From the NCBI GenBank assembly GCA_023249105.1, contig JAHFDG010000030.1, positions 1 to 45,242 of the forward strand: 45,242 nt of DNA, written 5' to 3'. The notes below the pieces were generated by a model. It did no database searches and had not been told where the DNA came from. It saw nothing but the letters and a program-made list of their open reading frames with translations. Position numbers and translations under genes: made by a program. This stretch comes from Candidatus Methanoperedens sp. (GTDB lineage Archaea; Halobacteriota; Methanosarcinia; Methanosarcinales; Methanoperedenaceae). Numbering within the stretch: position 1 is the first letter of the stretch; every line of letters starts with the position of its first letter. Shown here in pieces: positions 1,909 through 40,540 of this stretch.

Positions 1909-1920
1909 TTTTAACTCCTG

Positions 1921-2682: not shown

Positions 2683-2731
2683 AATTATGCTCCTTTAATG
2701 CTTCACTTAACTGCCATCGTTCCACAAATTT

Positions 2732-5250: not shown

Positions 5251-5260
5251 TGGATCACCC

Positions 5261-6466
5261 TCAACTTATCAGATGTGTCAGTTGCGCTGTTATGTGAGCA
5301 GCAGCCTGTGCGTCTGCAACCCCTTTTCCTTTGTGTATTTCCGCTGATGTCTCGCTGCCAGCCGCATTGATATTAGCTTGTGTAATTGTTCCAGCACTTT
5401 CCAGTCTTGAACTGTTATTAACCGCGTTAATTTCCGTTTTGTCTGAAATAATTTTTGCCTGTGTTGCCCTTTCATCATTGATGATGGAATTAAAAGAATT
5501 ATTTACATCGTTCTGGTACCGATTCTCGTTTATTATCTCTTTAGAAATAAGGGTTTGCTCATTACCAAACTGTTTATCATTCAGGTCTCTTTTTGCCGCC
5601 GATATTCCGATACCCTTATTCTCGGTTTTGATATCTTCCTTTAACTTTTCCACCTCTTTTTCGGAAAGGTCATTCTTCACATTTGCCTGTTCCAACTTTT
5701 CTTCCGCAATGTCATGCTCTATTGTAATTTGAGAAGGTATTAAGGCAGCATGGTGATTTGTTACTGTTGCCAACTCTGCCAGTCCGGGAATCATTTGTTG
5801 TTTCTTGGTTGCCGTTTCCCGTTCCGCCGCAATTAACTGGGAATAATATGTGCCCTTACCCTGCTCAAGAATGATAAGTTCCTGTTCTTTAGTAATAATT
5901 CTTTCAATCACCGGAATGATTTCTAATTTCTTTTGTGCCGTAAGAAGTTTGGCGTTGGCCAACTGTACCTCATAAGAAGCAGTTGCCGCATCAAGGGTTG
6001 CAAGTTGTGTACGATATCCCTCCATTTCAATATCAATGGCTGTCTTGGCGTTAATTAAAACGGCCTGCCGTGCATCGACTTCAATGGCGAGACTATTTAA
6101 CGTTTCTTCCTCTTCGGCCATTCCTTGTTTAATGATAGATAGTTCAGCGTCCCATGCTGCAATTAAAGATTGCTTCTCTGATTCCCAAATTATTCTGGCC
6201 GTTATATAGGCGTTATTGTAGTCGATCCCCATCTGTTTAAGTTCACGTTCAATGGTTTCTTCAAGAATCTTGTAATTCAGTTCGGAAAGTCCCAATTTAG
6301 CTGCCAGTTCGATTTCATTCTCAAGGTCATAGGCATAACCCGGAAGGTTCTTAAACCCACGTCCGGCTATCTCTGAAAGTAATTTTGCATGTTCCGCAAG
6401 ATACTTTCGGATAACCGGTGTTTTACTTTTGCGCCATGAGGCTAATTCTCTTAAATGTTCTGACAT
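5261..6466 (-). CDS. Coiled-coil virion protein B
   Basis: A 401-residue protein. Residues 1-90 are helical and basic; residues about 95-390 form long heptad-like helices, ending in an Ala/Glu-rich tail (AAAHITAQLTHLIS). The final residues resemble the end of the downstream protein A (AAAEITTQLTHTIRKAST), supporting common ancestry of the two genes. Start ATG at 6466 after GTAGGATTTT. Likely internal or ejection protein by place and composition; no enzymatic motif seen. Confidence 0.75.
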   Translation of the reverse strand: MSEHLRELASWRKSKTPVIRKYLAEHAKLLSEIAGRGFKNLPGYAYDLENEIELAAKLGLSELNYKILEETIERELKQMGIDYNNAYITARIIWESEKQSLIAAWDAELSIIKQGMAEEEETLNSLAIEVDARQAVLINAKTAIDIEMEGYRTQLATLDAATASYEVQLANAKLLTAQKKLEIIPVIERIITKEQELIILEQGKGTYYSQLIAAERETATKKQQMIPGLAELATVTNHHAALIPSQITIEHDIAEEKLEQANVKNDLSEKEVEKLKEDIKTENKGIGISAAKRDLNDKQFGNEQTLISKEIINENRYQNDVNNSFNSIINDERATQAKIISDKTEINAVNNSSRLESAGTITQANINAAGSETSAEIHKGKGVADAQAAAHITAQLTHLIS

Positions 6467-6472
6467 AAAATC

Positions 6473-7990: not shown

Positions 7991-8004
7991 CTTTCAACCT
8001 CTCC

Positions 8005-10362: not shown

Positions 10363-10392
10363 TGCTATTTCCTCTCATTCTAAATAGTTCGC

Positions 10393-11907
10393 TTAGACTG
10401 CTCCCATCACATCTATAAGACCAACAAAACTTGTGGATACCAAGACACTCTCGTCAAGTCCATCCATTGATGTATCAAAATAATCCGTTATGTTTATATT
10501 TTCCGACAGACCATCAATAAGGCCATCTATTGCCTCAGTTACGGACACATTCTGCTGGATTGCCTTCCCTCCGTCCGTAACTGTGAAAGAATCGTCAACA
10601 CTGATGTCTTCCGTTATTAACCCGTCAAGCGTGCGAGAGACACCACTCAAAGTTATGCCATCTCCTGTTTTTTCTGTTGAAAAAGTAGGGGAATAAGCAG
10701 TTATATCGACAACATTATCCGTTGCGGTTGCCGTAAATTCAGCGCCTTCAATTCTGTTAATTGCAAGTGCAAGGTTTGCGGTGGTTTCGTTTACTGTCGC
10801 TCCTATCTGAACTTCATATTGATTCCTCGGATAATAATTTACAAAAGTAAAAGTTACATCCCCTAACGTTCCACCTTTCAGTTTGATGGTATCGCCTGGG
10901 GCAGGATTAGTCGTTAAGGTTATTGAACTGCTGGATGTTAGTTCAATCAACCCGTAATCGGAAGAGAAAATGAACGGTTGAGACGGAGGGGTAAAGTTTC
11001 CCGTCCAGAGGGCTCCCTTGATTATCTGTATCCCGTCTATAATAACTGACGAACCAGTCCCAATCACAAAATTTAGTAACGCATCTTCAATTTCTATATC
11101 AGAAACCGTTTGAGGAGACTCAGGTGTTAATGCTCCGTTATCATACATATACCCATTATAGCCACCAGTTACCTTTACATAAACTGTTACATTATGGATT
11201 GTAGATCCCGCTGGATATCCCCCCTCTGGTTCAAGCAATCTCCTGAACATCGAAAAGGTAAAATCACCTTCTGTGCACTTATTAATAAATGTTGAGTTTG
11301 TTGGGTATGTTAATATTGCCCCTGATTCCGGTAGATTCGAGCTAGAACCATTGAAAAAACATGATCCTGAACCAAATAAAACATTTCCTGTTTCAATTGT
11401 ACAGTTTTGTATTGTTGAAGGCGTAAACCCACTAACAGACTCAACAAATGAACCTTCAAATTCTACATCGAAAAGGATTTCTCCGGCTAAACTTGGAGTC
11501 TCTGGAGAAGGTATTTCTGTTGCTGACACAACCACCGGGTCGCCGGGATTACTATTATCTAAAAAGGTGGCTATATTCATTGTCCCTGAAAATGTTACGG
11601 TTAAAGTAACATTCCCCGGAAGAGAAAAATCAGATATCGACGCGTAATCGCTCCATTTACCAGTAGCGGGAATATAAAAACTCGCGGCTCCATTGACGGT
11701 TACCGGAATATTTTTGGTTCCCTGAATCAGTCTTGCGCTGGTTATAAGAACAGAAGAAACACCATTCCCCGCAAGCCAGAACTTCGCCTGTGGCGTGACT
11801 GGCACTGAAAAGGTCTGCGACACAGTATTTAATACTGATGTCGTGCCTGAACCTATCCCTGATGGATTCCAAGGGTTTCCTCTGGTAAATAAAACAACTT
11901 TAGGCAT
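10393..11907 (-). CDS. Tail/adhesion protein with C-terminal EDISV-type repeats
   Basis: A 504-residue product, starting at ATG 11907, two bases after the stop of the upstream gene; a longer TTG start at 11937 would overlap that gene and is less likely. Residues 1-130 look beta-rich; residues about 140-330 resemble a lectin-like LamG/jelly-roll region (ILFDVEFEGSF, then a SGSCFFNGSSS phrase); the last 80 residues contain degenerate repeats (EDISVDDSFTVTD, SENINITDYF, ESVLVSTSF) related to those in the gene at 6473-7990. Likely a fibre or adhesin that shares its shaft repeat with that protein. Function is inferred from architecture. Confidence 0.7.
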   Translation of the reverse strand: MPKVVLFTRGNPWNPSGIGSGTTSVLNTVSQTFSVPVTPQAKFWLAGNGVSSVLITSARLIQGTKNIPVTVNGAASFYIPATGKWSDYASISDFSLPGNVTLTVTFSGTMNIATFLDNSNPGDPVVVSATEIPSPETPSLAGEILFDVEFEGSFVESVSGFTPSTIQNCTIETGNVLFGSGSCFFNGSSSNLPESGAILTYPTNSTFINKCTEGDFTFSMFRRLLEPEGGYPAGSTIHNVTVYVKVTGGYNGYMYDNGALTPESPQTVSDIEIEDALLNFVIGTGSSVIIDGIQIIKGALWTGNFTPPSQPFIFSSDYGLIELTSSSSITLTTNPAPGDTIKLKGGTLGDVTFTFVNYYPRNQYEVQIGATVNETTANLALAINRIEGAEFTATATDNVVDITAYSPTFSTEKTGDGITLSGVSRTLDGLITEDISVDDSFTVTDGGKAIQQNVSVTEAIDGLIDGLSENINITDYFDTSMDGLDESVLVSTSFVGLIDVMGAV

Positions 11908-11909
11908 GT

Positions 11910-12479
11910 TTATACATCCGCCAGCGTAATTGAGCAAACAACCATTAAAATGTCACCGGATACCACTCCTTTCGCTGTGGCAAACTTACTTGCCGCAAAG
12001 AGAGTCCCTCCGCCTGCGGCGTCGCCCTTAGTCGTTGGCGCAGTGCCACCTCCGCAAAGAAAAGCGCCATAAATCGTTTTGGTAGCGTTTATTGTAAAGG
12101 TTGCCTTGTTTGCGCTGTTTGTGATAACTTTTGCCGTAGCCGCTGCTTCGACATATTCAGGTCTTGCCGCTTCAGTGTAAGCCGAGCTTTCGGTAAAACC
12201 GGGAATGGCATAGGTATCGCCTATAAGAGGCGTATAATTGTCCTCAAACAACCCCATGTACCAGGGCGTGATTGCCGTTGCTCCGTGAAATCCGACATTA
12301 AGCAGATGATTTAATCCTTCTGTCGTGTTGACATTCTTCTGCTCCCACCGGTCAATGAGTTTTCCTTTCCGGTACTGCTCAAATTCCCACCATGAACCAA
12401 TAGGGATAATTGATTTAATCGATGGATTGCTAATGAGCTGAGGGGTAAAAACTGTTCTAATAGGTAATCTTGATTTCAT
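11910..12479 (-). CDS. Virion protein, paralogue of the gene at 14429-15034
   Basis: A 189-residue protein with AAAGGAGAAAT before its ATG. It shares a colinear set of phrases with the 201-residue product at 14429-15034: GKLIDRWEQ.NVNTTEGLNHLL against GKLIHECDQ.NIFTTQGMNYML, then a GLFEDN/GIFKNN segment, TIYGAFL/TVYGAFL, and FATAKGVVSGD/FTTARAVIDND. The two genes are thus an old duplication. The C-terminal half is a small beta domain. Similar small proteins occur among podovirus tail genes; the role is unknown. Confidence 0.75.
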   Translation of the reverse strand: MKSRLPIRTVFTPQLISNPSIKSIIPIGSWWEFEQYRKGKLIDRWEQKNVNTTEGLNHLLNVGFHGATAITPWYMGLFEDNYTPLIGDTYAIPGFTESSAYTEAARPEYVEAAATAKVITNSANKATFTINATKTIYGAFLCGGGTAPTTKGDAAGGGTLFAASKFATAKGVVSGDILMVVCSITLADV

Positions 12480-12500
12480 AATATTTCTCCTTTTTTTTAA

Positions 12501-13313
12501 TCACTTTGTAAAATTCCAGTACATTCCTGTCTGCCGCGCTCTATTATTATAAGACGCCCTAATTTGGCTATCTGAACGCAAATTGCTATAAAGATTATCG
12601 AGATAATAATTCCGGTTGGTCAACTGGACACAAAGCCAGGCATGGCCACCACTGAGTAAATTGCCGTTTGAATCCCATGTATCCAAACCCTTTAATGTAC
12701 CAATTTCAATATGAATAGCTGATGCAGGGTAGCCTTTATCTAAAAGTCTCTTTGCCTTTTCCAACGCATGGTCTTCACAATCGCCCGAACCGAGAACACT
12801 GACAAATTCCCAATTGTCCAGTTTCCCGCCATCGGAAACAAACGGATAGGTCTGGTCGACATAGGAATTTACCTCCTGAAGGTCGGCAAGAACGGTATCG
12901 GAATAAGTTATTTTACTGTCTTCTTCATTCGTTATTAAGGCAAAAGAAGGATAGTGTTGCGCAAAATTATAGAATCCGGGAACGGGCACAAATGCCGTCT
13001 GAAGCACAGGATAAGGCTGCTGATAATCAATGCTTATTCTTGCATCGATGTTTGATTCCGGTGGCAGGATATCAGAAAGCAAATTACCATTAATATCAAA
13101 TACTTTTATACTAGGCGCTATCAGTGTTTCACCCTCTACTTTTATCCCGCTATTAGCAACAATAAACCTGACATTATTGGATGGGAAGTCTCCGGGTACC
13201 ACGCCTCCATCACGGTCAAAAACAGTGCAAACCTGAAATCTTCCGCAGGACTTGATTGTCTTCTGGTATTCTCCCACGCCGTAATGTTTTGCCTTTAAAT
13301 ATGTAGTAGTCAT
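12501..13313 (-). CDS. Transglutaminase-like cysteine peptidase (BTLCP type)
   Basis: A 270-residue product with the triad layout of the bacterial transglutaminase-like cysteine proteinase family: Cys179 in GSGDCEDHA, His224 in SGGHAWLCV and Asp239 in YYLDN. The sequence LLDKGYPASAIHI between them is also typical. Start ATG 13313 lies one base after the stop of the upstream gene; a longer frame to 13427 would overlap that gene by over 100 bases and encode an unlikely hydrophobic leader. The first 120 residues are a separate beta-rich region. The family is mostly bacterial and often linked to surface protein processing; here, among tail genes, it may cut a host surface protein or process a virion protein. 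Target unknown. Confidence 0.8.
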   Translation of the reverse strand: MTTTYLKAKHYGVGEYQKTIKSCGRFQVCTVFDRDGGVVPGDFPSNNVRFIVANSGIKVEGETLIAPSIKVFDINGNLLSDILPPESNIDARISIDYQQPYPVLQTAFVPVPGFYNFAQHYPSFALITNEEDSKITYSDTVLADLQEVNSYVDQTYPFVSDGGKLDNWEFVSVLGSGDCEDHALEKAKRLLDKGYPASAIHIEIGTLKGLDTWDSNGNLLSGGHAWLCVQLTNRNYYLDNLYSNLRSDSQIRASYNNRARQTGMYWNFTK

Positions 13314-13314
13314 A

Positions 13315-14418
13315 TTAATATTGAATGGGCGGCGTCCACCCTCCTCCTCCTTCAATACCCAGGCAGGTATCAAATTCAATGGTGTTGACAAAATTATAAT
13401 CAACCATCGGGAAGTTATAGAGAACAACGTAAGTCATTGTTGAGATGGTGTATAATCTTAATTGCGCTCCGGTATAGGGATCATGCTTATGATCCGGGCA
13501 CCAATAATATTCCTGTTCTTCCGATTCACTTACAAGGTTGCCTTCGCTGTCTTTCGGCCACGAGCCATCATCAAATGTCCACTCACTCTCGACCTCGTCC
13601 CACTTGCCCCACTGCCCGGATAACTGGTCTATAATAATATCTTCCCAATTGGCCGTCCGCACAACGTACAGCAGATGTTCATTGGACATGTCGCACCGGC
13701 TCTCTACAAGGTACATCGGAAATGGCGATTCTTCCCCTCCTACCTGGTCGTCCCACCAACCCTTACGCATGCCAATAAAATCATATATTCCGCTAGCGAT
13801 AAGATTAAATTCATGGTCAAGGGTTATGTACGTTGTCGGACTTGTCCTTATCAGCCAGAGTTCCCGGTTCCACTGCCAGACATGGTCAATAATATATCCT
13901 TCTGAATTGGAGAGGGTATAGGTCTTGCTAACCGTGCCATCAACACCAACGAGTTTCACCCATGACGGGCAGACAACAATATATTTCTGTTGTCGGTAAC
14001 TCCATGAAATGTCGCAGTTTTCGGAATTAAAAATAATATTGTTATAAAGCAAATAATCATTGGGAAAATTATCGGCCCTGGCAATATTTTGATTCTGATA
14101 AACTACCAGTTTTTGAAGTAATATTTCACTCTTCGATCCGCCATAAATGACTTTGCAATCGCCGATTGACAATGCGTTGACCTTCTTCATTACAATAACA
14201 GAATCACCGGCAACAAAATTCTCCGCTGCGCCGTAAATCGCTCCATTATCGCGTAAGTTTGAAGTGGGCAAACTGTGCCAAAACAAGAGAGCAGGATAAA
14301 CACTCCCTGCAATATTCACCGTACAGGTATCATCAGAAGGGGAAACCGTTACTATTTCCCCTTCAAGAAACTCATTTTTCAGCACATCCCCTATATCCAC
14401 AAAATCATGTGTGGGCAT
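13315..14418 (-). CDS. Tail/virion protein of unknown function (367 aa)
   Basis: A 367-residue protein after TAGGAGCATCAAC. Residues 1-100 look like an OB-type beta domain (EIVTVSPSDDTCTVNIAG, then ENFVAGDSVIVMKK), which is common in phage baseplate, hub and spike proteins. The rest is Trp- and Tyr-rich beta sequence, possibly a propeller or sandwich, with an acidic tract near residue 290. The next gene is translated directly after it. A hub or spike component is possible; no named family was recognised. Confidence 0.7.
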   Translation of the reverse strand: MPTHDFVDIGDVLKNEFLEGEIVTVSPSDDTCTVNIAGSVYPALLFWHSLPTSNLRDNGAIYGAAENFVAGDSVIVMKKVNALSIGDCKVIYGGSKSEILLQKLVVYQNQNIARADNFPNDYLLYNNIIFNSENCDISWSYRQQKYIVVCPSWVKLVGVDGTVSKTYTLSNSEGYIIDHVWQWNRELWLIRTSPTTYITLDHEFNLIASGIYDFIGMRKGWWDDQVGGEESPFPMYLVESRCDMSNEHLLYVVRTANWEDIIIDQLSGQWGKWDEVESEWTFDDGSWPKDSEGNLVSESEEQEYYWCPDHKHDPYTGAQLRLYTISTMTYVVLYNFPMVDYNFVNTIEFDTCLGIEGGGGWTPPIQY

Positions 14419-14428
14419 GTTGATGCTC

Positions 14429-15034
14429 CTAAGTTGAGGTGCAAGAAATAGTATAATTTATACTGAGCACATCATTATCAATAACCGCACGAGCTGTAGT
14501 AAACTTTTTAGCGCACATCAGATACCCGGTCGTTGCAGTTTTGGCCGAAACGGTTGACAGAAACGCCCCATAAACTGTTATACTCTGTGCCATCGTAAAA
14601 GAAGCCGGCGATGCAGAATTGGTGCACGAACCCGAAGCCGCTGCCGCGATGGTATATGATGGTTTATCGGTTAACGGAGAGTCGTAGTCGGCATCCTGAC
14701 ATTCTCCATAAGTACCTCCCGCACCAAGTTTAGCTGATGCAGTGTCTGCAAGCGCCGGAGCTACATTGTTTTTGAAAATGCCAACATAAAAAATAGCACT
14801 GCCAGCTTTTGAGGTTGTACCAAACATAACCTCAAGCATATAATTCATGCCTTGTGTCGTGAATATGTTCCCGCCCTGGTCGCACTCATGGATCAATTTC
14901 CCTTCACGGAAATGTTTTGTAAACACCTGTCCGTGAAAGTTAATGCCTGATTCCATAAAGTGTTTGGCGGCATATCTTGCCTCAGCGCTGTCTCTTATGT
15001 TTCCAAGATCGATGGGAATAACTTTTCTTTCCAT
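14429..15034 (-). CDS. Virion protein, paralogue of the gene at 11910-12479
   Basis: A 201-residue protein with AAAGGAGATAAAC before the ATG. It aligns over most of its length with the 189-residue product at 11910-12479 (shared TTQGMNYML-like, TVYGAFL and FTTARAV phrases). The central part is Ala/Ser/Thr-rich. Two genes, for the 367-residue protein and the cysteine peptidase, separate the copies, so this is not a simple tandem duplication. Probably a small tail component. Confidence 0.75.
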   Translation of the reverse strand: MERKVIPIDLGNIRDSAEARYAAKHFMESGINFHGQVFTKHFREGKLIHECDQGGNIFTTQGMNYMLEVMFGTTSKAGSAIFYVGIFKNNVAPALADTASAKLGAGGTYGECQDADYDSPLTDKPSYTIAAAASGSCTNSASPASFTMAQSITVYGAFLSTVSAKTATTGYLMCAKKFTTARAVIDNDVLSINYTISCTST

Positions 15035-15057
15035 TGTTTATCTCCTTTGTTATTTTT

Positions 15058-16386
15058 TTAAATTTCCACGCCGTCCCTATAAACCTTGCAGCTTACCGAA
15101 TCTGTAAAGCAGGCGCGGGATATCTCTCCTTTTAGTACTTTATTGTGGATATCTATCCTGTTATTTTTGAACGTATTATAAGTTTCTTCATCCCGAAAAC
15201 CTCTGCCTGTGCCGGTCGTTCCTGTTTTAAAACTGGTAAGAAACTGGATGACACCGTTAAGATTACGATACAAGGAAGCTCCCAGTTCAGGTATACCCAT
15301 TTTAAGTTTATTTTTTGTGATATTAAAAAACTTTCCTGATGGACTACCGACTACAATACCTTCTTCTGTCAACCAGACCGGGACGTCTGCAAAGTCTTTC
15401 TCTGGTGTTCCCAGAGTCCACCCCAATTCCGGAAGATTATTACAATAAGCCAAAGTTCCTTTGATTGATCCCGGCCCCGCGTCTTGAACAGTCATTTGTT
15501 CCGGTATAGTTCCAGCCAGAAACAGCGTTTTTTTCTTCATGCCGATGAACAAGCCAGTCGTCACTTTCGCAATCATTGTAACCGTATCCTCGAATGAATA
15601 TTTATTTGATGTTAATTTATACCATCCAAAGTTAAAGGCTTCGGAATAATAAACATTCTGTCCAACAGATCCCCAAACACGACCAAAAGCATAACAGAGA
15701 TTTTCCATATACGGCGGAGGGGAACATAAAAATGATGGAAGTGGTTCAATGGTCGGAATATCAACTACTCTATCTGTTGCCCCAACTTTATAAAAAATAC
15801 TCTCGTCGGAATCGGTCACCCATACTAAAGCGCCAGACGGTCTATTCAGTATCTTGATCCCTCCTTCTGCACTCAGTGTAATTTCGGTTATCGGGCCATT
15901 GCCAGAAAGTTGGTTATCAGATACGTTGGTCATACATACTTTATATGTCCCGGCAGGGAGGTTACCGTTATCTGTAGTGAGCATTGGGCCGGGAGGAACG
16001 GCTACACCCCATTGAGAAATTGAATTATTGTACGGATTAAACACTCCCTGCCAGTACGGGTTACTGCAATATACCTTGTTCTCTACATCAATGTAAGAAA
16101 GTGGTGATTTGGAGCCATATACGGTTCCAATATTTACCGCTGTGCCCTGAGATATACGATACAAAATACTATCGGCCACGCAAAGCATACAGGTTTTGCC
16201 AGCCCAAAGACTGTGCGCGTTTTGTAATCCCAAGTAAAGCGTTGTTCCCTGGCGCCGCTTTAAAGAACCGTCAAGGTTCACATCAGCGTTCAAAATAACA
16301 CGCGGAGACAACAATCCCTTGGACGTTAGAAACTGTTCGTTGACGTTATTTGCGCCTGAAAATCCTTTTGTGTTAATCTCGCTCAT
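15058..16386 (-). CDS. Tail nozzle / packaged-DNA stabilisation-like protein
   Basis: A 442-residue beta-rich protein. Near residue 25-50 it has the phrase LLSPRVILNADVNLDGSLKR, and then repeated hydrophobic beta strands, as in propeller-like tail nozzle proteins and P22 gp10-type DNA stabilisation proteins of podoviruses. Its ATG overlaps the stop of the adaptor gene just upstream (TAATG), the usual neighbour of this protein type. It probably extends the head-to-tail channel. Assignment rests on general pattern and gene order, not on a verified match. Confidence 0.65.
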   Translation of the reverse strand: MSEINTKGFSGANNVNEQFLTSKGLLSPRVILNADVNLDGSLKRRQGTTLYLGLQNAHSLWAGKTCMLCVADSILYRISQGTAVNIGTVYGSKSPLSYIDVENKVYCSNPYWQGVFNPYNNSISQWGVAVPPGPMLTTDNGNLPAGTYKVCMTNVSDNQLSGNGPITEITLSAEGGIKILNRPSGALVWVTDSDESIFYKVGATDRVVDIPTIEPLPSFLCSPPPYMENLCYAFGRVWGSVGQNVYYSEAFNFGWYKLTSNKYSFEDTVTMIAKVTTGLFIGMKKKTLFLAGTIPEQMTVQDAGPGSIKGTLAYCNNLPELGWTLGTPEKDFADVPVWLTEEGIVVGSPSGKFFNITKNKLKMGIPELGASLYRNLNGVIQFLTSFKTGTTGTGRGFRDEETYNTFKNNRIDIHNKVLKGEISRACFTDSVSCKVYRDGVEI

Positions 16387-17066
16387 TAGTAATCGTCATC
16401 ACTTCCATAATAAGATGGGCCTTCGTCTATGCCTATAAAAGCACAAAGTTCAGTCATTGCCTCATTAAAAATACTATTGTGTATTTTATATCCGGTGCCC
16501 ATGTTATCTTGTCCATCTTCCAAATGTTCTCCGTATATTCCTTTGCAGACATACGATTTTATTAATTTCATTTGCAGATGTTCAGGAATCCCGTCGGGAG
16601 AATCTCCGTCCAGTGCCATGTCGGTTGGCTTACGATAAAAATGCAGTCCGATAGTCTCAGGGGTTGCGGGAATGCCCTGATAGTATAGTCTTGTACCTTT
16701 AATGGCGACACAATAAACCTGCCCTTTTTCTTCAAGGCGCAAATCACTTAAGCCTCTCAGAAACAGATTATAGGCATAATAATTACCGTCGGATGTAGGG
16801 CTAATCCTGTTCCCGGAACTATCGCAGACAAGAAAGACATTGCGTTGATAATCAGAAGGCAAAGAGACGTAAGCCTGAGTTGATGTTATTACCGTGTCGT
16901 AGTCAACCAAATCGGGCAAAGGCGGAGAAATACTTCTATTCGGCATTATTATACCGGCAGCGATGGAATTTACCGCTTCGTTTATTTTTTTTGTATATTT
17001 CGCCAGATACGCATCGTCTTGAATTATATCATTGATGGCATCGGTAAGAGTTGATAAAGTTTCCAC
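16386..17066 (-). CDS. Head-tail adaptor protein
   Basis: A 226-residue protein starting at GTG 17066 with GAGGC about eight bases upstream. The N-terminus is helical (residues 1-35), followed by a beta-rich middle (QAYVSLPSDYQRNVF) and a C-terminal helix region (PEHLQMKLIKSYVCKGIYGE) as in gp4/gp6-type connector or adaptor proteins of podoviruses. It lies between the capsid block and the nozzle-like gene, which fits a ring below the portal. A terminator stands just before it, so its expression may be set by read-through. Confidence 0.65.
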   Translation of the reverse strand: METLSTLTDAINDIIQDDAYLAKYTKKINEAVNSIAAGIIMPNRSISPPLPDLVDYDTVITSTQAYVSLPSDYQRNVFLVCDSSGNRISPTSDGNYYAYNLFLRGLSDLRLEEKGQVYCVAIKGTRLYYQGIPATPETIGLHFYRKPTDMALDGDSPDGIPEHLQMKLIKSYVCKGIYGEHLEDGQDNMGTGYKIHNSIFNEAMTELCAFIGIDEGPSYYGSDDDY

Positions 17067-17079
17067 GCCCAGCCTCTTT

Positions 17080-17115
17080 AAAAAAATCCCTCCCCTCGCT
17101 AAAAGGAGAGGGATT
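17080..17115 (-). terminator. Rho-independent terminator after capsid accessory gene
   Basis: On the minus strand an 11-base-pair stem (AATCCCTCTCC pairing with the 17085-17095 segment, one G-T pair) with a 7-base loop is followed by a run of seven T. It lies between the 128-residue capsid-associated gene and the adaptor gene and should lower adaptor expression relative to capsid. Confidence 0.85.
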
Positions 17116-17140
17116 GTATTATTTAACCGAACAACTTTTC

Positions 17141-17527
17141 TTACGCTTCCAGAGACTCCTGTTTTACGTATGCTGAATCGTCGTAAACGATATGCAGCAA
17201 CACATTTGCCGCACCGCCAAGGATTGTGGCATCAAGTGACACCTTGATCTTGGTATTAGCAACCGTTGACGAATCGGGATCAAAAACCAATCCTTTGTTT
17301 GTGGTGTCGGGAACGCCTTTCAGAACTATTCCCGCAGCAGTACCGCCCGCTGGTGCGGTAGCCGTATTGACTGCCGTGGTGTCTCTTGCTAAAATAATTG
17401 TTCCGCTCGCAACCATCGCTGCGTTGGCCATATACTCTGCTGACTTGACAGTTCCACGGCAAGGAACAGGAATGTAATAGTCTTCCACTCCTCCGGCACT
17501 GTATAAATTTACATAAATATCTTTCAT
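17141..17527 (-). CDS. Small capsid-associated (decoration-type) protein
   Basis: A 128-residue beta-rich protein after AAGGAGAAATACC. It contains no coiled coil or membrane segment; strands alternate with Gly/Ala/Thr loops (TAPAGGTAAGIV), a jelly-roll-like pattern. Position two genes after the major capsid protein and a terminator directly behind it suggest a protein made in large amounts, such as a head decoration or cement protein. Family not verified. Confidence 0.65.
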   Translation of the reverse strand: MKDIYVNLYSAGGVEDYYIPVPCRGTVKSAEYMANAAMVASGTIILARDTTAVNTATAPAGGTAAGIVLKGVPDTTNKGLVFDPDSSTVANTKIKVSLDATILGGAANVLLHIVYDDSAYVKQESLEA

Positions 17528-17569
17528 GGTATTTCTCCTTAATTTTATTTTTGTTACTTACGTTAAATG

Positions 17570-18487
17570 TTATTCAGCTATCACCGCAAAAGGTACTGTT
17601 GCCGCTACGCCGTTAAGACCAGTAAGGATGTTGCCGGAGGCCAATGCTAAATTGAAATCATAGCCACCCGTGGTTGTGGCGATATTAGCAGCCGTAATCA
17701 GACGATTATCGGTGACAATAACTGTATCTGAATTGTCGTCAATAGTCAGAACTGTTGCCTTAATGATGCTGTTCTTGATACGACTACCGTATGCCGGTGA
17801 ATTTGCCACAACATCAATGCCCTCTGTGGCTTCCACGAAGCAATCATCGATCAGGAATTGATGGGTTGACGCTATTCCGGCGACGGAAATTCCAACAGCG
17901 CAAATACCTGTTCCGTACGCGCCGGGGTTCTGGTGAATCTCAAAACCTTGAATCTTAAAGAGGGCCGAATCGGTGATCTGTACACCGACTGTATTCCCTG
18001 CTAAAGACGGCTGCAGCATACCGCCCAAAATCTGGAAACCGTGGCATCCTGCTGGAATTGTAAGACCGACACCGGTTCCATCTAATGTGAATCCGATATT
18101 GATAAAGCGGCATCCAACTTTTGCCAACGCAATAGTGTGATGGCCGATTATACGGGGATAAGGAACTAGATCAGAGCCACATCCGATGACATCGCATTTT
18201 TCTGGAAGAACGGTTAAGTTTTCGGTAATACCATCGCCGCATACAAAAATCTTATTGCGTCTTGCCCACCAACGATTCGCCGCAAGGCCAATACTGGCGT
18301 TGGAAGCGGTGATTGCTTCTGCAACAGTCGCGAAGGGATGATCGGGTGATCCACTACCGGTTGCCGCTACATTCAGATCAACGTAATACTTACCGGCCTT
18401 GGGCCCTTCGTAATCGTTAACCATTAAAAAATCTGAAATAGGCTTAGATGCCTTACTTCCGCCAACGGTTAAAACTCTTTCACTCAT
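17570..18487 (-). CDS. Beta-helix virion protein next to capsid gene
   Basis: A 305-residue product starting at ATG 18487 (AAAGGAGAATATC upstream); a nine-codon longer start lacks a ribosome site. Residues about 45-290 have irregular beta-helix character, with phrases such as FINIGFTLDGTGVGLTI, GFEIHQNPGAYGTG and RIKNSIIKAT. Gene position directly after the capsid gene points to a head fibre or decoration protein instead of a tailspike. It carries no recognisable hydrolase motif. Confidence 0.7.
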   Translation of the reverse strand: MSERVLTVGGSKASKPISDFLMVNDYEGPKAGKYYVDLNVAATGSGSPDHPFATVAEAITASNASIGLAANRWWARRNKIFVCGDGITENLTVLPEKCDVIGCGSDLVPYPRIIGHHTIALAKVGCRFINIGFTLDGTGVGLTIPAGCHGFQILGGMLQPSLAGNTVGVQITDSALFKIQGFEIHQNPGAYGTGICAVGISVAGIASTHQFLIDDCFVEATEGIDVVANSPAYGSRIKNSIIKATVLTIDDNSDTVIVTDNRLITAANIATTTGGYDFNLALASGNILTGLNGVAATVPFAVIAE

Positions 18488-18541
18488 GATATTCTCCTTT
18501 ATTGCAGGCCTCAAACTACGCCTGCTGAGATTTAAAGGGTT

Positions 18542-18566
18542 ACAGGGGCGATTTCTCGCCCCCTGT
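18542..18566 (-). other. GAAA-tetraloop hairpin behind the capsid gene
   Basis: Five bases after the capsid stop codon, the minus strand forms a stem of ten base pairs (ACAGGGG-CGA with TCG-CCCCTGT, one bulged G) capped by GAAA. No T-run follows, so it is more likely a transcript-stabilising or partial termination element than a full terminator. Confidence 0.7.
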
Positions 18567-18570
18567 TAAA

Positions 18571-19569
18571 TTACGCCGCTTTACTTAGGTTTGTATGCAA
18601 CACGTTCATCTTGCGATTCTTGCAAATCAAATTTCCCTGCCATCTCGTATTGGCCGATATCACATCCGGCTGTCCGAGAACTGACTTGTCAAGCCACACC
18701 GGCTTGGTGAAATTGAAATCCTTATGCGCTTTCAGCCCCAAATAGTTGAGATTGAGTGCAAACAGCCAGCCGGCTGGGACGCCACTATCGGATACAATAG
18801 GAGCGCCTTTGTGCATGATGTTTCTCCATCCGGCCTGAACCATGACATCGTTTGTGTATCTTTGCTGCGGATGTAAGGACAACTCGTAGGCATCTTTCAA
18901 TAGTGCCGTTGTGCAACAGAAATTGGGCAGTTTACTGTCAACGTCGCCTGCCGCAGGTGCTCTGAAAATGCCCTGCATAGTCTCGAAACACATGGTTTCC
19001 GCTGTCTTGATGACGTTGTTTATCCAGTTCGGCTCTTCAGACAGGGCGATACATCCGTATTCAACACTTGTCGCACCCTCGACTCCGGCGGCGCTTACAT
19101 TGAATAAGTCCAACAAACCGTTTATGCCGTCACCTGTGCCCCTTGCACTCATAATCTGTGCCGCAAGATCAACACGGGCAGACTCTTTGATGTTTTCCAT
19201 GTATTGATTGGTTAATCGGATTACCGCTTCCGAGCCGGAGTTCTTAACCTTGTCGTCAAGATTCAACGTATTGGAACCGTAGGCGCCACCCCATCCGAAT
19301 CGGGCCGCAGTCACAAGGTCTTTCTTGGACTGATTAATTACGGTAGTTGCTCCGTAGGTGCCGTGATTTGAATTCGCATTAAGCAGCGGAACTTTAATCA
19401 TAGTTCCGCCGTCAACAGTTTCTTCGGGCTGGACAATAAGACTATCTTCCGCTTTCGCCTTGCCGCAAAGCGCCCATAAAAGAGCCGATGCAGTATTAAA
19501 AATATCTTCTGGAACAACAGAGTTCCAGTATACTTCGGTTGTTGCATTTAATTGATTTTGTAAAGTCAT
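18571..19569 (-). CDS. Major capsid protein
   Basis: A 332-residue protein after AAGGAGATATAGCT. Sequence features fit a HK97-fold shell protein of the podovirus type: an N-terminal arm, a region rich in Thr/Asn (ANSNHGTYGATTVI), a long helix around residues 115-145 (NQYMENIKESARVDLAAQIM) that fits the spine helix, and C-terminal beta segments. It directly follows the scaffold gene, the standard order. No delta-domain protease is encoded nearby, consistent with a separate scaffold. Confidence 0.85.
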   Translation of the reverse strand: MTLQNQLNATTEVYWNSVVPEDIFNTASALLWALCGKAKAEDSLIVQPEETVDGGTMIKVPLLNANSNHGTYGATTVINQSKKDLVTAARFGWGGAYGSNTLNLDDKVKNSGSEAVIRLTNQYMENIKESARVDLAAQIMSARGTGDGINGLLDLFNVSAAGVEGATSVEYGCIALSEEPNWINNVIKTAETMCFETMQGIFRAPAAGDVDSKLPNFCCTTALLKDAYELSLHPQQRYTNDVMVQAGWRNIMHKGAPIVSDSGVPAGWLFALNLNYLGLKAHKDFNFTKPVWLDKSVLGQPDVISANTRWQGNLICKNRKMNVLHTNLSKAA

Positions 19570-19595
19570 AGCTATATCTCCTTATACAAGGACGA

Positions 19596-20381
19596 TTACC
19601 CGCTTAACTTGGCCAAAGCTTCGGCCATAGCAGCGTCACGCTCCTTGCCGGTTAGTATTGTTTTGTTAGTGGTCTGTCCGGGACTTTGTCCCTTTATGAT
19701 CACCGTTCCTGTTTTATCCCTCCCTGCTTGCAGTTTAAGGGCTTCCATCATTTCTGCGTTTTTTTGTTCCAGTGCGGCTGCTCTTGCTTCCGCATCAGTA
19801 GCCTTGATTTCAGCGAACGCCGACATTTTGTCATGCATCCCGGTAGAATCGTTGGCGATAAAATCATTTATTCGCTGTTGCATTTCCGGGGTGTTGAATG
19901 TGGGATTTGCCTTGAGGAATTCTCTCTGCGATGTTTTTATATCGCGTTCCTGTAATTCCTTCTGAAAGAGCTTCCCAGCCTCACCAAGGACAGTATTTTT
20001 AACTTTTTCGGCTGTTAGTTGATTAGATTTTGACATCAACTTAGCAAGTTCGCCCTGATATTTTTCACTCAAAGGATCAAGTTTCTCTATCTGAGCGTTT
20101 ACGTTTGCAATTTCCGAATCGTAATCAATACCTTCCGCCTTTTCCTTTCCGTATCCCGGTTGAGATTTCTCTTTGGTAAGGGTTTCTTTTAGGGTTTCGG
20201 CTAAGGTCTGCGCTTGATTGCGTATTTGCCCCAGTTCGTTCCCCTGCTCTCCAAGTTTCTTTTCCAGATTTGTCCTCTGCGCCTGTTCTTTGGCAAATGC
20301 AGCGGCTAACTCTTCCGGGGTCTTAAAACCTGTCCCAGCAATTCCTTTATCTTCGCTTTGATCATTCATATTCTCTTCCAT
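19596..20381 (-). CDS. Capsid scaffolding protein
   Basis: A 261-residue, highly charged and almost wholly helical protein: Gln/Glu/Lys-rich coiled coil over residues about 20-150, then KANPTFNTPEMQQRINDFI and a basic C-terminus (DKTGTVIIKG). Start ATG 20381 has GGAGAG eight bases upstream. Lies between portal-side genes and the major capsid gene, the normal place of a scaffold. A strong terminator upstream (20463-20518) separates it from the portal-side genes. Confidence 0.85.
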   Translation of the reverse strand: MEENMNDQSEDKGIAGTGFKTPEELAAAFAKEQAQRTNLEKKLGEQGNELGQIRNQAQTLAETLKETLTKEKSQPGYGKEKAEGIDYDSEIANVNAQIEKLDPLSEKYQGELAKLMSKSNQLTAEKVKNTVLGEAGKLFQKELQERDIKTSQREFLKANPTFNTPEMQQRINDFIANDSTGMHDKMSAFAEIKATDAEARAAALEQKNAEMMEALKLQAGRDKTGTVIIKGQSPGQTTNKTILTGKERDAAMAEALAKLSG

Positions 20382-26005: not shown

Positions 26006-28303
26006 CTAGTCCTCAAATACACTATCGCTAAAAAAGCTCTCGCCGATCAGGTCGGTTATTGCCCAGACTAGCGCATCTAAACGGTTTGGCGATTTGTCGC
26101 CCGGTAACCACAAGCAGAGCTCATCTTCCAAGGCCGGAAAATTTCCGACATGATGGACAAGATTCTTCTCATACTTTGCGCTTACCGGCTCGGCGCGCAC
26201 ATTTTTACCGCGCGCGGCGTGAACGAGTTTAACGGGAACATCTTTATCAACTTGTTTAATTGTAATGGCCACCATCTCCCCGCCTTGATTCTTCTCGGCC
26301 ACAATCAGATTTGCCTTGTGCCGGTGATAGGCATCAACGGCAGCCTGGGCCCATGCCAAAGGTGATCCATTCAATGTGCAATCTTCCAGAATAAAACCCT
26401 GATCGGCCAGGGTGCCGGCCACGATGATACCGGCAGCGTCCCCGCCACCATCGGCAGAGGTTGTCGGGTCGATGGCCACAACGATCTTTGATAGTTCAGG
26501 TGATTGTATAACCCTGTTCTTTTCGATGTTCTCCCGTGTCCACAACGCGCCCGGTGCTTGATCTATGTCCTCAGCAAGAATTTCCATCCGGTAAGCCAGG
26601 CTGCTCATGTCAGAAGTAATTTCTGCCAGCGCGTCTTGGCTTATGTACGGATTGTCCATACTGGAAAAATGGAATGTGGCCCAGCGTCCGGGGTTTGATT
26701 TTCCCAGTAGCGCCGCTTTTTTAAACAGTTTTGCGGCGTGCTGAGGGTCGTTGGCTTTTGAAACACTGCGGGAGTGCAAAGAGGGCGGCGTATAAATAAA
26801 AACTGCGTCTCCGTCGTTGTCGAGCAGCATTGGCGCACCGACAACCGCCCAAGCATCTTCATTGATGAGTTGGTACTCGTCAAAAATGAGCAAGCTGCAA
26901 TAATCACCACGTAGCGTATCAGCATTCCAGCAAGTTTTTGCTCTCAATCTTTGCTCTGTGCCTTTTAACTCAATAATATGTTCAGTCTCATTTTTGTAAA
27001 AAATCTTGTTTCGGGTCAGCTCATCGGTTGCGTTTGTAACCGATGTCCAAAATCTGCCAATTTGCTCTGAAGTTGGAGCTGCATACAAGACTCTGCGACC
27101 TTTTAGAAATTCCTGTATGGCAAAAATAGCAATTCCCACGGTGTTATGTGTCGCAATGAAATTATCCGTAAGGTAAAGTCCAGCCGGATCAGATATCTTT
27201 ATACACTGCGCGGCTTCTTCTCTAACTTTCTCAACTTTATGTATGTACCTTTTGACCGGCCAAGCTCTCCGTTTCGCTTTTTGTTTTTTGGCTGGGAGGG
27301 TAAATAAACATGAGGCATCCGGGAATAATATGCTTTGTCGGTAAACATCTCTCGCTATAACTTTAACCCCTTTGTATTTATAAGAATTTTTCTTCACATG
27401 AAGAGTGCATAATCCACCCATGGATTGTATTACCTCTGCAACATCTTTCGCAAGTCTTTCTGACGTTTGTTCTAGCCTCGGCTGGCCATATTGATCTACA
27501 GACCCATCTGTGTCTAATATCCCCTGTATAATTCCCATCCTTACCTCTATAGAGTTATATTTATATACATCGGGAATATATTTTTCGTAACTGTACTTAC
27601 CCCATAAATTAAGCTTTTTTAGTGCTCTAATGATTGGATTCTCGTAGACACCCATACCAACACTTAAAACATAATCATGTTTGTCGCCATCTCGCCGCAT
27701 AGTCATTCCTTGCGGCAATCTTTTACTCACTTGCTCACGGATATATGGATCATATGCAGACACCATCACTGATTCATGCAACATGCTGCCATCTCCAATC
27801 AAAACCCCAAGCAAATATGGATCTATTGGCACATCTTGAGACATAAACCGCACGGGGCTTGTGGATGGAATGGTTGGCCTCCTTTTAGTGCCATGACCCA
27901 CTTGTGTAATGGTCTTCATTTTTGATAATTGTTCAGTCGTAACAACCCTGGTTCTCTCCTTCCAAACACTATCTGTTCGCCTTTCTTTTATCTCCCAAAG
28001 ATGGTCGAATGTGCTTTCAGCGTATTCACCGCCCCCAAACGATACACGATAAATATCCTGTATCCCTTGCGGATAGACTCCTTCAACTCTTGCCACGCCA
28101 CCAGCCGGTGTTAGGACTTTATCTCCGATTTTGATATCCGCCATAATTTTATACCCCGTAGGAGTATATATTTTGGCCGTTAGCGGCTGTGCTTTTCCCG
28201 AGCGTCTCCCCGCCCTAATCACCTTTCTTTTTGCGGTCGACTGCATAAAATCCAGTTGTTTTGCGTGCGGCTTCGGAAGTTTTACTGTGTATTTTTTAGT
28301 CAT
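26006..28303 (-). CDS. terL: Terminase large subunit (TerL) interrupted by an intein
   Basis: 765 codons; the spliced product would be 415 residues. ATG 28303 overlaps the TerS stop by eight bases; a longer frame to 28372 overlaps TerS more and lacks support. The ATPase Walker A motif is split: GRRSGK (residues 32-37) ends at the intein, and T388 resumes it. Walker B is LLIFDEY (471-477). The C-terminal nuclease has Asp612 in VVAIDPTT, Glu670 in AEKNQGG and Asp743 in PNRLDAL, the usual acidic metal-binding trio. The enzyme translocates and cuts phage DNA at the portal. Without protein splicing the ATPase site would be broken, so intein activity is essential to the phage. Confidence 0.95.
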   Translation of the reverse strand: MTKKYTVKLPKPHAKQLDFMQSTAKRKVIRAGRRSGKAQPLTAKIYTPTGYKIMADIKIGDKVLTPAGGVARVEGVYPQGIQDIYRVSFGGGEYAESTFDHLWEIKERRTDSVWKERTRVVTTEQLSKMKTITQVGHGTKRRPTIPSTSPVRFMSQDVPIDPYLLGVLIGDGSMLHESVMVSAYDPYIREQVSKRLPQGMTMRRDGDKHDYVLSVGMGVYENPIIRALKKLNLWGKYSYEKYIPDVYKYNSIEVRMGIIQGILDTDGSVDQYGQPRLEQTSERLAKDVAEVIQSMGGLCTLHVKKNSYKYKGVKVIARDVYRQSILFPDASCLFTLPAKKQKAKRRAWPVKRYIHKVEKVREEAAQCIKISDPAGLYLTDNFIATHNTVGIAIFAIQEFLKGRRVLYAAPTSEQIGRFWTSVTNATDELTRNKIFYKNETEHIIELKGTEQRLRAKTCWNADTLRGDYCSLLIFDEYQLINEDAWAVVGAPMLLDNDGDAVFIYTPPSLHSRSVSKANDPQHAAKLFKKAALLGKSNPGRWATFHFSSMDNPYISQDALAEITSDMSSLAYRMEILAEDIDQAPGALWTRENIEKNRVIQSPELSKIVVAIDPTTSADGGGDAAGIIVAGTLADQGFILEDCTLNGSPLAWAQAAVDAYHRHKANLIVAEKNQGGEMVAITIKQVDKDVPVKLVHAARGKNVRAEPVSAKYEKNLVHHVGNFPALEDELCLWLPGDKSPNRLDALVWAITDLIGESFFSDSVFED
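27143..28192 (-). other. Class 3 intein with LAGLIDADG homing endonuclease in TerL
   Basis: 350 codons inserted between K37 and T388 of TerL. The first residue is Ala, so the standard N-terminal nucleophile is missing; class 3 marks are present: Trp103 in block B (TFDHLW), Cys367 in block F (QCIKISD), and Thr385 in the C-terminal ATHN before the +1 Thr. The endonuclease motifs are LLGVLIGDGS (164-173) and MGIIQGILDTDGS (256-268). Inteins in phage terminases at the Walker A site are known; residue positions here use the 765-residue numbering. Confidence 0.93.
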
Positions 28304-28793
28304 TAAAAATATGCGTCTTCCCTTCGCTCTCGTAAATAATTTTAATTTCCACTGGCCCCCCATCCTTCCCAACTACCTGCTGATTGTCAGCATAATGTGC
28401 ATGATTCTTTAACCAGAAGATTGGTCCGGTAGCGTTCTTCCCCGCCAATAAATATTCCTCAACATTCATTTCCACTTTTAACTTCGCCTTTTTTATTATG
28501 TCTAAAAACCCTTTTCTGGTATCATAATTAATAAGCGATTGCCGGGAATTAAAACCAAGGAATGAAGCCAGTCCTGCGATGGTGTATGGTTGATTTTGAT
28601 AGCGACTATTGGTTGTTGTGACATTCCCTTCTTTGTCAGTAATTTCAACAACTTTATCAATCCAACAGGATTCAAAATACTCTTTTATTTTAGTTTCTAA
28701 CTCCTGCGGTGTTTTAAATATAGGAGGTCTTCCGCCGACATTTAACGGTTTGTCGACCATGTCAACTTTTTTTTTGTTCTTTTTTTTCAGCAT
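28296..28793 (-). CDS. terS: Terminase small subunit (TerS)
   Basis: A 165-residue product with a very Lys-rich N-terminus (MLKKKNKKKVD), then VGGRPPIFKTPQELETKIKE, TIAGLASFLGFNSRQSLINY and AGKNATGPIFWLKNHAH, phrases that recur in small terminase subunits that bind phage DNA through a helix-turn-helix. Start ATG 28793 has AGGAG eleven bases upstream; longer starts overlap the RNA-rich region and lack a site. It marks DNA for packaging and feeds TerL, whose gene it overlaps. Confidence 0.88.
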   Translation of the reverse strand: MLKKKNKKKVDMVDKPLNVGGRPPIFKTPQELETKIKEYFESCWIDKVVEITDKEGNVTTTNSRYQNQPYTIAGLASFLGFNSRQSLINYDTRKGFLDIIKKAKLKVEMNVEEYLLAGKNATGPIFWLKNHAHYADNQQVVGKDGGPVEIKIIYESEGKTHIFND

Positions 28794-28885
28794 CCTTTTT
28801 TTTGCTCCTGATCTAACCCATATCGACACATTTTTCCGCAATCGACTTGTCCGTTATTAAGTAGATGTAATAATTAAGTTTTATC

Positions 28886-29089
28886 TCAGGGCATATCGTC
28901 GAGACTACCATGTAGCTCCTCGCTGTCTGTCCCAGCGTGCCATCCGTCCTCCATGTTGCCGACGACCTGTTACTTCCCGGGTCAACTGATGTTTCCCCGG
29001 GCTCTAGGTTCCCGTTTTTTCCGTTACCCGGCGGCTTACTCTACCTGCGCCGGCGATCGGGGTGCCGGGTATATCAGCACCCACCCTGA
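28886..29089 (-). ncRNA. Candidate structured RNA ahead of terminase genes
   Basis: This 204-base, GC-rich stretch in the gap 28794-29096 contains no gene but many perfect complementary segments. Outer stem TCAGGG/CCCTGA closes it (29084-29089 with 28886-28891). Inside are GGGTGC/GCACCC (29077-29082 with 29059-29064), CCGGCG/CGCCGG (29047-29052 with 29028-29033), CCCGGG/CCCGGG (28996-29001 with 28976-28981) and TCGTCG/CGACGA (28960-28965 with 28896-28901); the last encloses CGCTG/CAGCG and CTAC/GTAG hairpins. An extending G-U pair fits the minus strand. I do not know an RNA family that matches. Confidence 0.6.
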
Positions 29090-29096
29090 TTTATCC

Positions 29097-29312
29097 TTAT
29101 GTATATATAGTGGACAATGCCTTAATAGTTATCCCTGATGCTGGGCAACCTCCGTGCTCTAAAAGAAAATTTGATAAATTATCTCCATAACATGTCCACT
29201 TGTCTGACCCTTTATTTTTACAGAGTTTAACCTGTTTTGCAACGCCATCAGGGAGACAACACTTCTCACACACCAACAAAAAATTTTCTATTTCCGAAAT
29301 TAATATCTCCAT
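29097..29312 (-). CDS. Small Cys-rich protein, first gene of late operon
   Basis: A 71-residue protein starting at ATG 29312 behind AGGAGCCATA; longer frames start further up without a site. Contains VCEKCCLP, then VKLCKNKGSDKWTCYGDN and HGGCPASG, six Cys residues in total that may bind zinc. It lies 205 bases upstream of the RNA-rich region and is the first gene after the leftward promoter candidate. Unknown function. Confidence 0.65.
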   Translation of the reverse strand: MEILISEIENFLLVCEKCCLPDGVAKQVKLCKNKGSDKWTCYGDNLSNFLLEHGGCPASGITIKALSTIYT

Positions 29313-29355
29313 TATGGCTCCTCGCTGATTAACTACCCTTATACTCTTTTTTTTT

Positions 29356-29384
29356 ACTTTATCAAGCATTTTTTTGTTTATCAA
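29356..29384 (-). promoter_or_regulatory. Leftward sigma70-like promoter for late operon
   Basis: Minus strand: TTGATA at 29379-29384, 17-base spacer, TAAAGT at 29356-29361. It lies 44 bases upstream of the first late gene. The -35 element overlaps a TTATCAACA box. Confidence 0.4.
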
Positions 29385-29578
29385 CAACCTGCCAGAAGCG
29401 TGTAGCGCGTAAGTTATTGTTTTTTAAAGCAATTCAACGCTACCTGTTGATAACATTGTTGATAACAGGTGTTGCTGGGTATCTTCAACGGTTCACTGGG
29501 TTTCCTCACAAACGGGCATTTTTAAGCTCCTGATTGGCCTAAGGTGTTGATTTACAAACATTATTCCAGTTATCAACA
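29378..29578. other. Cluster of four TTATCAACA boxes (DnaA boxes or operators)
   Basis: The 9-mer TTATCAACA occurs at 29378-29386 and 29570-29578 (plus strand) and 29445-29453 and 29457-29465 (minus strand). It differs from the DnaA consensus TTATCCACA at one position. The two central copies lie in ACCTGTT...AACAGGT. An AT-rich stretch follows at 29630-29660. This non-coding region 29313-29781 also holds both divergent promoters. It could be a replication origin or an operator cluster. Confidence 0.55.
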
Positions 29579-29699
29579 GTTTTTACAGGTGGTTATTTTC
29601 ACCAATTGGCACGGTTCGGGATTTTGCCAAAAACTTTTATATATTTTTATTACCTTTTAAAAACAGATACTTACGGTGTTTTGTTGTTATTTGCAAGGT

Positions 29700-39908: not shown

Positions 39909-40043
39909 ATGAAAACAGACTGTGAAAAATACGATGAGTGTCGGAAGCCAGTGCAGGCATGCACTCCCAAATGCCTGGAATATGTCAAAAGAAAAAACTC
40001 AAGTGCTCGAAAACAAAAAAGATTAGAGAAACGACGTCAATGA
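39909..40043 (+). CDS. Cys-rich small protein A (44 aa)
   Basis: A 44-residue protein after AGAAGGAGTTTAACG. Cys pattern in CEKYDECRKPVQACTPKCLEY, then a Lys/Arg-rich tail. It aligns with the 56-residue product at 40560-40730 (CENFGKCTLPVQICARKCPGY): C-x5-C-x6-C-x3-C with a shared PVQ. The HNH gene lies between them and overlaps its stop by ATGA. Confidence 0.7.
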   Translation: MKTDCEKYDECRKPVQACTPKCLEYVKRKNSSARKQKRLEKRRQ

Positions 40044-40540
40044 AAACAATAAATATATATAGGAAGAAAGAAGTTGTCGGCCAAACCCAAGTATCTGATG
40101 AGGACTATGTAGACTTAAATCAGTATAGATGGGGAGTGCAGAGAGGTAAGAATACTGATTATGCAAAAAGAGGTAAGAGTGTAGAAGGAAGAATCTTACA
40201 TATTTTTATGCATAGAGTCGTGTTAGAACGTAAACTTGGTAGACTTTTATTATCTGGTGAGTTTACCGACCATATAGACCACAACGGCCTTAATAACCAA
40301 AGAGACAATATAAGAGTTGCTTCAAAGAGTCAAAATGAAATGAATAAGCATTTAAGTATTGATTCCTCTTCTGGTTGTAAGGGCGTATGTTGGTATAAAG
40401 AGCGTAAGAAGTGGCGTTCGTGTATTAGGTTTGAGGGAAAGCAAATTCATCTGGGCTATTTTGATAATAAGGAGCTTGCTTCTCAAACCTACCAAACCAA
40501 AGCCAAGAAGCTCTTTGGAGAATTTTACTGTGAGAAATGA
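40040..40540 (+). CDS. HNH-AP2 homing endonuclease
   Basis: A 166-residue product starting at ATG 40040. The HNH part contains FTDHIDHNGLNNQRDNIRVA, with paired His and Asn as in HNH_3 enzymes; the C-terminal AP2 DNA-binding part has CKGVCWYKERKKWRSCIRF and GKQIHLGYFDNKELASQTY. Together these are the free-standing homing endonucleases common in phages. It lies between two paralogous Cys-rich genes and uses the last codons of the first, a usual insertion pattern. Confidence 0.9.
   Translation: MKTINIYRKKEVVGQTQVSDEDYVDLNQYRWGVQRGKNTDYAKRGKSVEGRILHIFMHRVVLERKLGRLLLSGEFTDHIDHNGLNNQRDNIRVASKSQNEMNKHLSIDSSSGCKGVCWYKERKKWRSCIRFEGKQIHLGYFDNKELASQTYQTKAKKLFGEFYCEK

Follow-up and report, generated by a model that had tools for sequence, protein, structure and literature searches.

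A structured RNA with covarying helices beside the terminase genes of a tailed virus, a possible leader of the late operon

Results

A conserved RNA on the late strand

The window, meaning the whole stretch of 45,242 bases analyzed, carries a structured RNA at 28886–29089 on the minus strand, which is also the strand of the packaging genes. The RNA is borne out by covariation across homologues. It makes up a new family that is rare and so far known from viruses only, and belongs to the broad, familiar class of viral structured leaders or noncoding RNAs. The evidence slightly favours a leader RNA that acts in cis on the late (packaging) operon, and the element seems to be a portable device by which viruses control their late genes through RNA. 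The sequence-only reading had proposed either a packaging RNA or a controller of terminase dosage; the former now appears less likely and a controller of late or terminase expression is favoured, because the same RNA with its tail precedes unrelated terminase genes and near terminase relatives do without it.

The description of the region as a GC-rich stretch dense in complementary pairs was accurate. The GC content is 57–59%, compared with 31–40% around it (100-base windows), the five pairs TCAGGG/CCCTGA, GGGTGC/GCACCC, CCGGCG/CGCCGG, CCCGGG/CCCGGG and TCGTCG/CGACGA are all found in the window, and the outer helix ends precisely at 28886 on one side and at 29089 on the other. Also the statement that there is no good reading frame was right: indels of 1 and 25 bases among the homologues shift the frame, and the element is noncoding. 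Folding gave a modest signal, with −77.3 kcal/mol for the minus strand (z −2.29, 1 of 200 shuffles as good) and z −1.28 for the plus strand (20 of 200 as good). Since the folding energy by itself is modest, the verdict of a structured RNA is based on the covariation among homologues.

The RNA had been called undescribed, and the searches agree. Rfam gave no match over the window at the gathering score and nothing credible over 28750–29250 at E up to 5, the tRNA and tmRNA search found none, and no description was found in open-licence papers. The element is single-copy in the genome assembly. The covariance model R1, which has the window itself among its sequences, matched 28874–29094(−) with 271 bits.

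Table 1. Coordinates of the RNA, its helices and the neighbouring features in the window.
Feature	Position	Strand	Basis or remark
Structured RNA, whole element closed by P1	28886..29089	−	covariance model R1 and double-sided changes
P1 5′ strand UCAGGGUG	29082..29089	−	partner 28886–28893
P1 3′ strand	28886..28893	−	partner of 29082..29089
P2 hairpin GGUGCUG-AUAUACC-CGGCACC	29061..29081	−	invariant in six sequences
P3: CCG/CGG, conserved internal loop AUCG/GUAA, then CCGGCG/CGCCGG	29021..29060	−	covariation
P4 5′ strand CGGGAACC	29007..29014	−	partner 28900–28909
P4 3′ strand GGUAGUCUCG	28900..28909	−	covariation
P5 optional hairpin CCCGGG/CCCGGG	28976..29001	−	found in 4 of 6 homologues
P6 hairpin UCGUC/GACGG, conserved loop GGCAAYAUGGAG	28941..28969	−	strongest covariation
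P7 hairpin CGCUG/CAGCG	28921..28937	−	CCCCG/UGGGG in L123
Conserved leader 3′ tail AUAAWACU...	28804..28885	−	alignment A4
Tail motif UGUYRAYAUGGGUUAGA	~28813–28830	−	A4; exact or near variant in 6 of 6
Shine-Dalgarno CAGGAGC	~28804–28810	−	sequence reading and A4
TerS (GP3_package, PF16677)	28296..28793	−	family match and start reading
TerL (Terminase_6C)	26006..28372	−	intein-like insert with LAGLIDADG_3
Small gene Up, no family	29097..29387	−	ends just before conserved element; probable ATG ~29311
Late promoter-like site TTGATA-16-TATAAG	29338..29365	−	sequence reading; lead only
Upstream control block, four GTTATCAAC/GTTGATAAC-like sites (29377, 29446, 29458, 29569)	29377..29648	.	block alignment with L123

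Covariation and helices

In the alignment of six distinct full-length sequences (A1), which are few and from which the structure was also derived, 14 of the 51 consensus pairs had both partners changed, with the pairing preserved, in one or more sequences. Shuffled controls had 4.6±1.6 such pairs and none of 500 reached 14. When the partner was slid by 1–3 columns, only 0–3 double-sided pairs were left and the share of pairing cells was 28–42% instead of 96.4%. Circularity is less of a concern in view of the slid control and the separate compensations, and the compensatory changes, exceeding both kinds of controls, speak for the conserved RNA that had been predicted. On the minus strand G-U cells outnumbered A-C cells 25:6 (19:6 at variable pairs), which argues for an RNA of the late strand and against one of the other strand or a DNA cruciform.

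Four of the five helices named in the sequence-only reading hold. The fifth, TCGTCG/CGACGA, was rejected as incomplete in every homologue (3–5 of 6 pairs); it is replaced by UCGUC/GACGG of P6, kept with 5 of 5 pairs in all six sequences by means of five different sequence pairs (UCGUC/GACGG, CCGGC/GCCGG, UCGGC/GCCGG, CCGCU/AGCGG and CUGGC/GCCAG). Also the two 3′ hairpins proposed earlier are real, but they are enclosed by a helix not listed then, CGGGAACC/GGUAG-UCUCG, so that the 3′ domain is closed by CGGGA/UCUCG; in L126 the P4 pairs CGGGA/UCCCG are compensated to CAGGC/GCCUG. In P1, UCAGGG/CCCUGA is exchanged for ACAAAG/CUUUGU (ACAAAGC/GCUUUGU in L123), and P3 is represented by UCAGUG/CGCUGA in L119 and by CCCG/CGGG in L126 and L127. 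L126 and L123 have lost P5. The P2 loop UGANNNNCCCG is kept in the short relative L162 although the stem there is CGUC/GACG.

Some further candidates were discarded. A kissing interaction between CUGAU of the P2 loop and AUCAG of the P5 loop is not general, P5 being absent in L126 and L123, and the pairing of UACCCGG in the P2 loop with CCGGGUA in P3 is broken in L119, which yet keeps P3. The frames of the leader peptides GUG GGU GCU GAU... and AUG GUA GUC... are broken in L119, L123 or MetMV.

Distribution of the RNA

Methanosarcina virus MetMV has a homologue with 94.7% identity (blastn) at 7224–7448 and a second copy in its repeat. Viral contigs scanned by protein and by pattern yielded an RNA identical to that of the window in L005, RNAs with 92–95% identity in L004, L127 and L119/L122, and more distant ones in L126 (75%) and L123 (72%). 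Among 50,697 phage records there was no carrier besides MetMV, and none among the plasmid records. R1 matched only the window's own assembly among 393 genomes of its phylum and nothing among 395 genomes from the phylum to which the assembly with L083 (G421) belongs, while the core pattern was found in the window alone in 155 + 186 genomes.

When a second model, R2, was run on other terminase relatives, L162 and L182 were the sole matches. L162 (TerL 62% of that of L122) has a short RNA form upstream of TerS, in which P2 has changed to CGUC/GACG and P3 to UCUGAC/GUUAGA while the signature CUGANNNNCCCGG - CGAUCG - GUAACG is retained; as L162 is part of R2, its independent support comes from R1 only (21 bits, E ~9e-5, the E-values of these home-made covariance models being rough). 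L182, with a TerL 92% identical to that of L123, has a truncated RNA with the 5′ part alone retained. No RNA match was present across the loci of L157 and L158, the TerLs of which are 90–94% identical to that of L122. In L015 the GC content also peaks upstream of TerS, but that stretch looks coding and was rejected as an RNA candidate. That the contig of L004 ends within the RNA was likewise not taken to indicate a cos site, since a near-identical stretch of another virus in the same metagenome, L127, explains the assembly break.

Terminase context

The late genes of the window lie on the minus strand in the order small gene, element, TerS (GP3_package), TerL (Terminase_6C), portal and major head protein, and MetMV shares the order small gene, RNA, TerS and TerL. 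The RNA of L127 and L119/L122 is followed by another TerS and another TerL (phrog_979 type), and the Up gene is absent in L119. Located behind a gp3-type TerS in L123 and a Sf6-type TerS in L126, the RNA precedes in both a TerL of the EBPR-podovirus type. In every case it is on the sense strand of the terminase genes, placed either in front of TerS or in the interval from TerS to TerL. In blastp at E 0.01, the three groups gave no TerL matches to each other. Accompanying three TerL types and at least three TerS types, the RNA does not belong with any particular terminase.

For the TerS of the window, the ATG at ~28793 after CAGGAGC is preferable as a start to the TTG at 28841, since the two are separated by the conserved leader tail. 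The TerL of the window has an intein-like LAGLIDADG_3 insert (residues ~61–410), which its relatives do not have, and the TerL of L127 has an Intein_splicing domain (PF14890) in a different place. In L158 (3592–4026) and L159 (384–611), both relatives without the RNA, small genes with weak helix-turn-helix/sigma-region-4-like matches are present upstream of TerS.

Conserved tail and upstream block

Judged from the alignments, the conserved cassette extends beyond the RNA and includes also the 3′ tail and an upstream block. The tail is conserved up to the Shine-Dalgarno sequence though the next gene differs, being a gp3-type TerS in the window and MetMV, an unrelated TerS in L127 and L119, and TerL in L123 and L126. 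All six sequences thus have the RNA on the same strand as a late gene and ahead of it, and the conservation extends towards the ribosome-binding site of that gene. AUG GGU UAG at 28813–28821, shortly 5′ of the terminase gene and conserved in 6 of 6 leaders, is a possible two-codon minimal ORF.

Upstream of the RNA, the window is similar to L123 at 29648–29420 (70% identity, E 2e-29, ~230 bases) and again at 29097–28810, the RNA and tail (71%, E 5e-41), whereas the gene between the two regions differs. The spacings of the GTTATCAAC-like sites are near-identical, 111/12/69 in the window and 99/12/70 in L123. The GTTATCAAC/GTTGATAAC-like cluster (29377–29585) is placed between divergent operons and is common to L123; these sites are probable operators of a viral regulator. 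The late promoter-like site of the window was not listed by the consensus promoter scan under its own rule. MetMV has TATAAT at the corresponding place, and L119 has TTGATA-17-TATAAG with the RNA starting only ~20 bases downstream, as the small gene is missing there.

Function of the RNA

The reading as a cis-acting leader is suggested by the two things that stay with the RNA, the ribosome-binding region of the following packaging gene and a shared late control block. The short distance from the promoter-like site to the RNA in L119 and the weakly matching helix-turn-helix/sigma-region-4-like genes of L158 and L159 also count in its favour. We infer that the RNA is co-transcribed with the late genes and acts in cis. 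It would be made together with the late genes from the minus strand, fold with P1 around P2, P3 and the multibranch domain of P4–P7, and work on its own transcript by setting the amount of late mRNA or of terminase protein. The position behind TerS in L123 and L126 counts against a cis leader, leaving a single cis target gene undefined.

Two acting steps may be considered, both speculative. The first choice would be processive antitermination, in which the RNA would modify RNA polymerase near the head of the ~27-kb operon. A strong intrinsic-terminator-like hairpin (13 pairs and a T run) is located at 17115–17085(−), with structural genes of the late operon on either side. Together with the location of the RNA this is suggestive only, because terminator-like sites across the operon were no commoner than in shuffles. 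The second choice would be protein-dependent translational control of the following packaging gene. No terminator was found in the leader and no helix hiding the Shine-Dalgarno sequence is common to all homologues, its pairing differing between them, so no classic switch is visible.

The alternatives are all less probable. A trans-acting packaging RNA, forming part of the terminase–portal motor like the pRNA of phi29, would agree with the constant position on the sense strand beside terminase genes and with the several hairpins with conserved loops. A part of a motor should follow its motor, however, and this element does not follow its terminase: a nearly identical RNA (92–95%) is found next to unrelated TerS and TerL, while L157 and L158 lack it and L182 has it truncated in spite of their closely related TerLs, which makes a motor RNA quite unlikely. 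A trans-acting packaging RNA that is portable, serving TerS/TerL motors of several unrelated terminase families and inherited in a cassette with its own control region, is decidedly unlikely. We consider it rather unlikely that the RNA is a small viral RNA that acts in trans outside packaging, binding for example a host protein or mRNA, and is a passenger in the late operon; the conserved unpaired UGAUAUACCCG, AUCG/GUAA and GGCAAYAUGGAG could be binding sites and the presence is patchy, but a free small RNA would not need the conservation through the untranslated region to the Shine-Dalgarno sequence of the next gene.

Two further explanations concern DNA. Sites of the cos or pac type usually lie next to TerS, and the element both adjoins TerS and has inverted repeats. 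Such a packaging site is nevertheless very improbable, as TerS has been swapped while the element stays (L127, L119, L126), i.e. the two are not inherited together, as the wobble pairs favour one strand as RNA, and as the element comes after TerS in L123 and L126. The patchy presence, the GC content unlike that of the surroundings and the GATAAA on either side in the window might also point to a mobile element, a MITE-like or ribozyme-like insert with inverted TCAGGG/CCCTGA ends and GATAAA repeats. This too has very little probability: there is one copy in the genome assembly and the element was never met away from terminase genes. A target-site duplication of GATAAA was rejected since the flanking repeats travel with the element (GGATAAA ... 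ATAATAC in L126 and L123).

Comparison with known systems

Like the phi29 pRNA (RF00044), the element is a structured viral RNA encoded next to packaging genes, but no match to RF00044 was found (window at the gathering score, 28750–29250 at E up to 5). It also differs from the pRNA in being ~200 bases long with P1 around P2, P3 and P4–P7, and in belonging to systems with TerS and TerL, where it moves between unrelated terminases. Instead of being tied to one type of packaging ATPase, as would be expected of a pRNA, it is found alongside three types of TerL. In phage HK022, the put RNAs act in processive antitermination, the RNA modifying RNA polymerase near the head of the operon. The element resembles them as a structured RNA that lies close to the promoter of a long phage operon and does not depend on the coding content that follows, but it is larger, unrelated in sequence and in a late instead of an early operon. 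With 5′-leader regulators such as riboswitches and ribosomal-protein leaders it shares the conserved fold followed by the Shine-Dalgarno sequence of the next gene, whereas it has neither a shared terminator/antiterminator or Shine-Dalgarno-blocking helix nor an Rfam family match. MetMV (MK170447), a virus of the same type as that of the window, carries the RNA, but unannotated.

To our knowledge, structured RNAs heading the packaging operons of tailed viruses are hardly known. The present one has a defined covarying fold without an Rfam relative and is a module exchanged between viruses with unrelated terminases, and with it the control of late genes by RNA can be put to a direct test in viruses of anaerobic microbes. 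It also cautions against reading an RNA beside terminase genes as a packaging RNA.

The virus and its host

The window is the genome of a tailed virus from a methane site, close to MetMV, with large blocks of 93–99.8% identity, and comes from a 3.28-Mb assembly with archaeal rRNA. The published host assignment of MetMV is from in silico prediction only (PMC7164591). The Shine-Dalgarno sites of the window are GGAGG-like and the late promoter-like site sigma-70-like, and the contig of the nearest cellular relative, L083 (TerL 70%), was binned as Syntrophaceae; a bacterial host therefore fits equally. The host is doubtful, and the window contig may be mis-binned. Window bases 1–20000 had no CRISPR-spacer or other matches in 30 other genomes of the genus.

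In the MetMV record (MK170447, L110 and L111; 67,826 bases) a stretch of 8,697 bases is present twice, so that the unit genome is ~59.1 kb and the gene count and length of the record are inflated. A related contig is 58.8 kb long. Among the early genes of the window, 39938–40540 encodes a homing endonuclease of HNH_3 + AP2 type.
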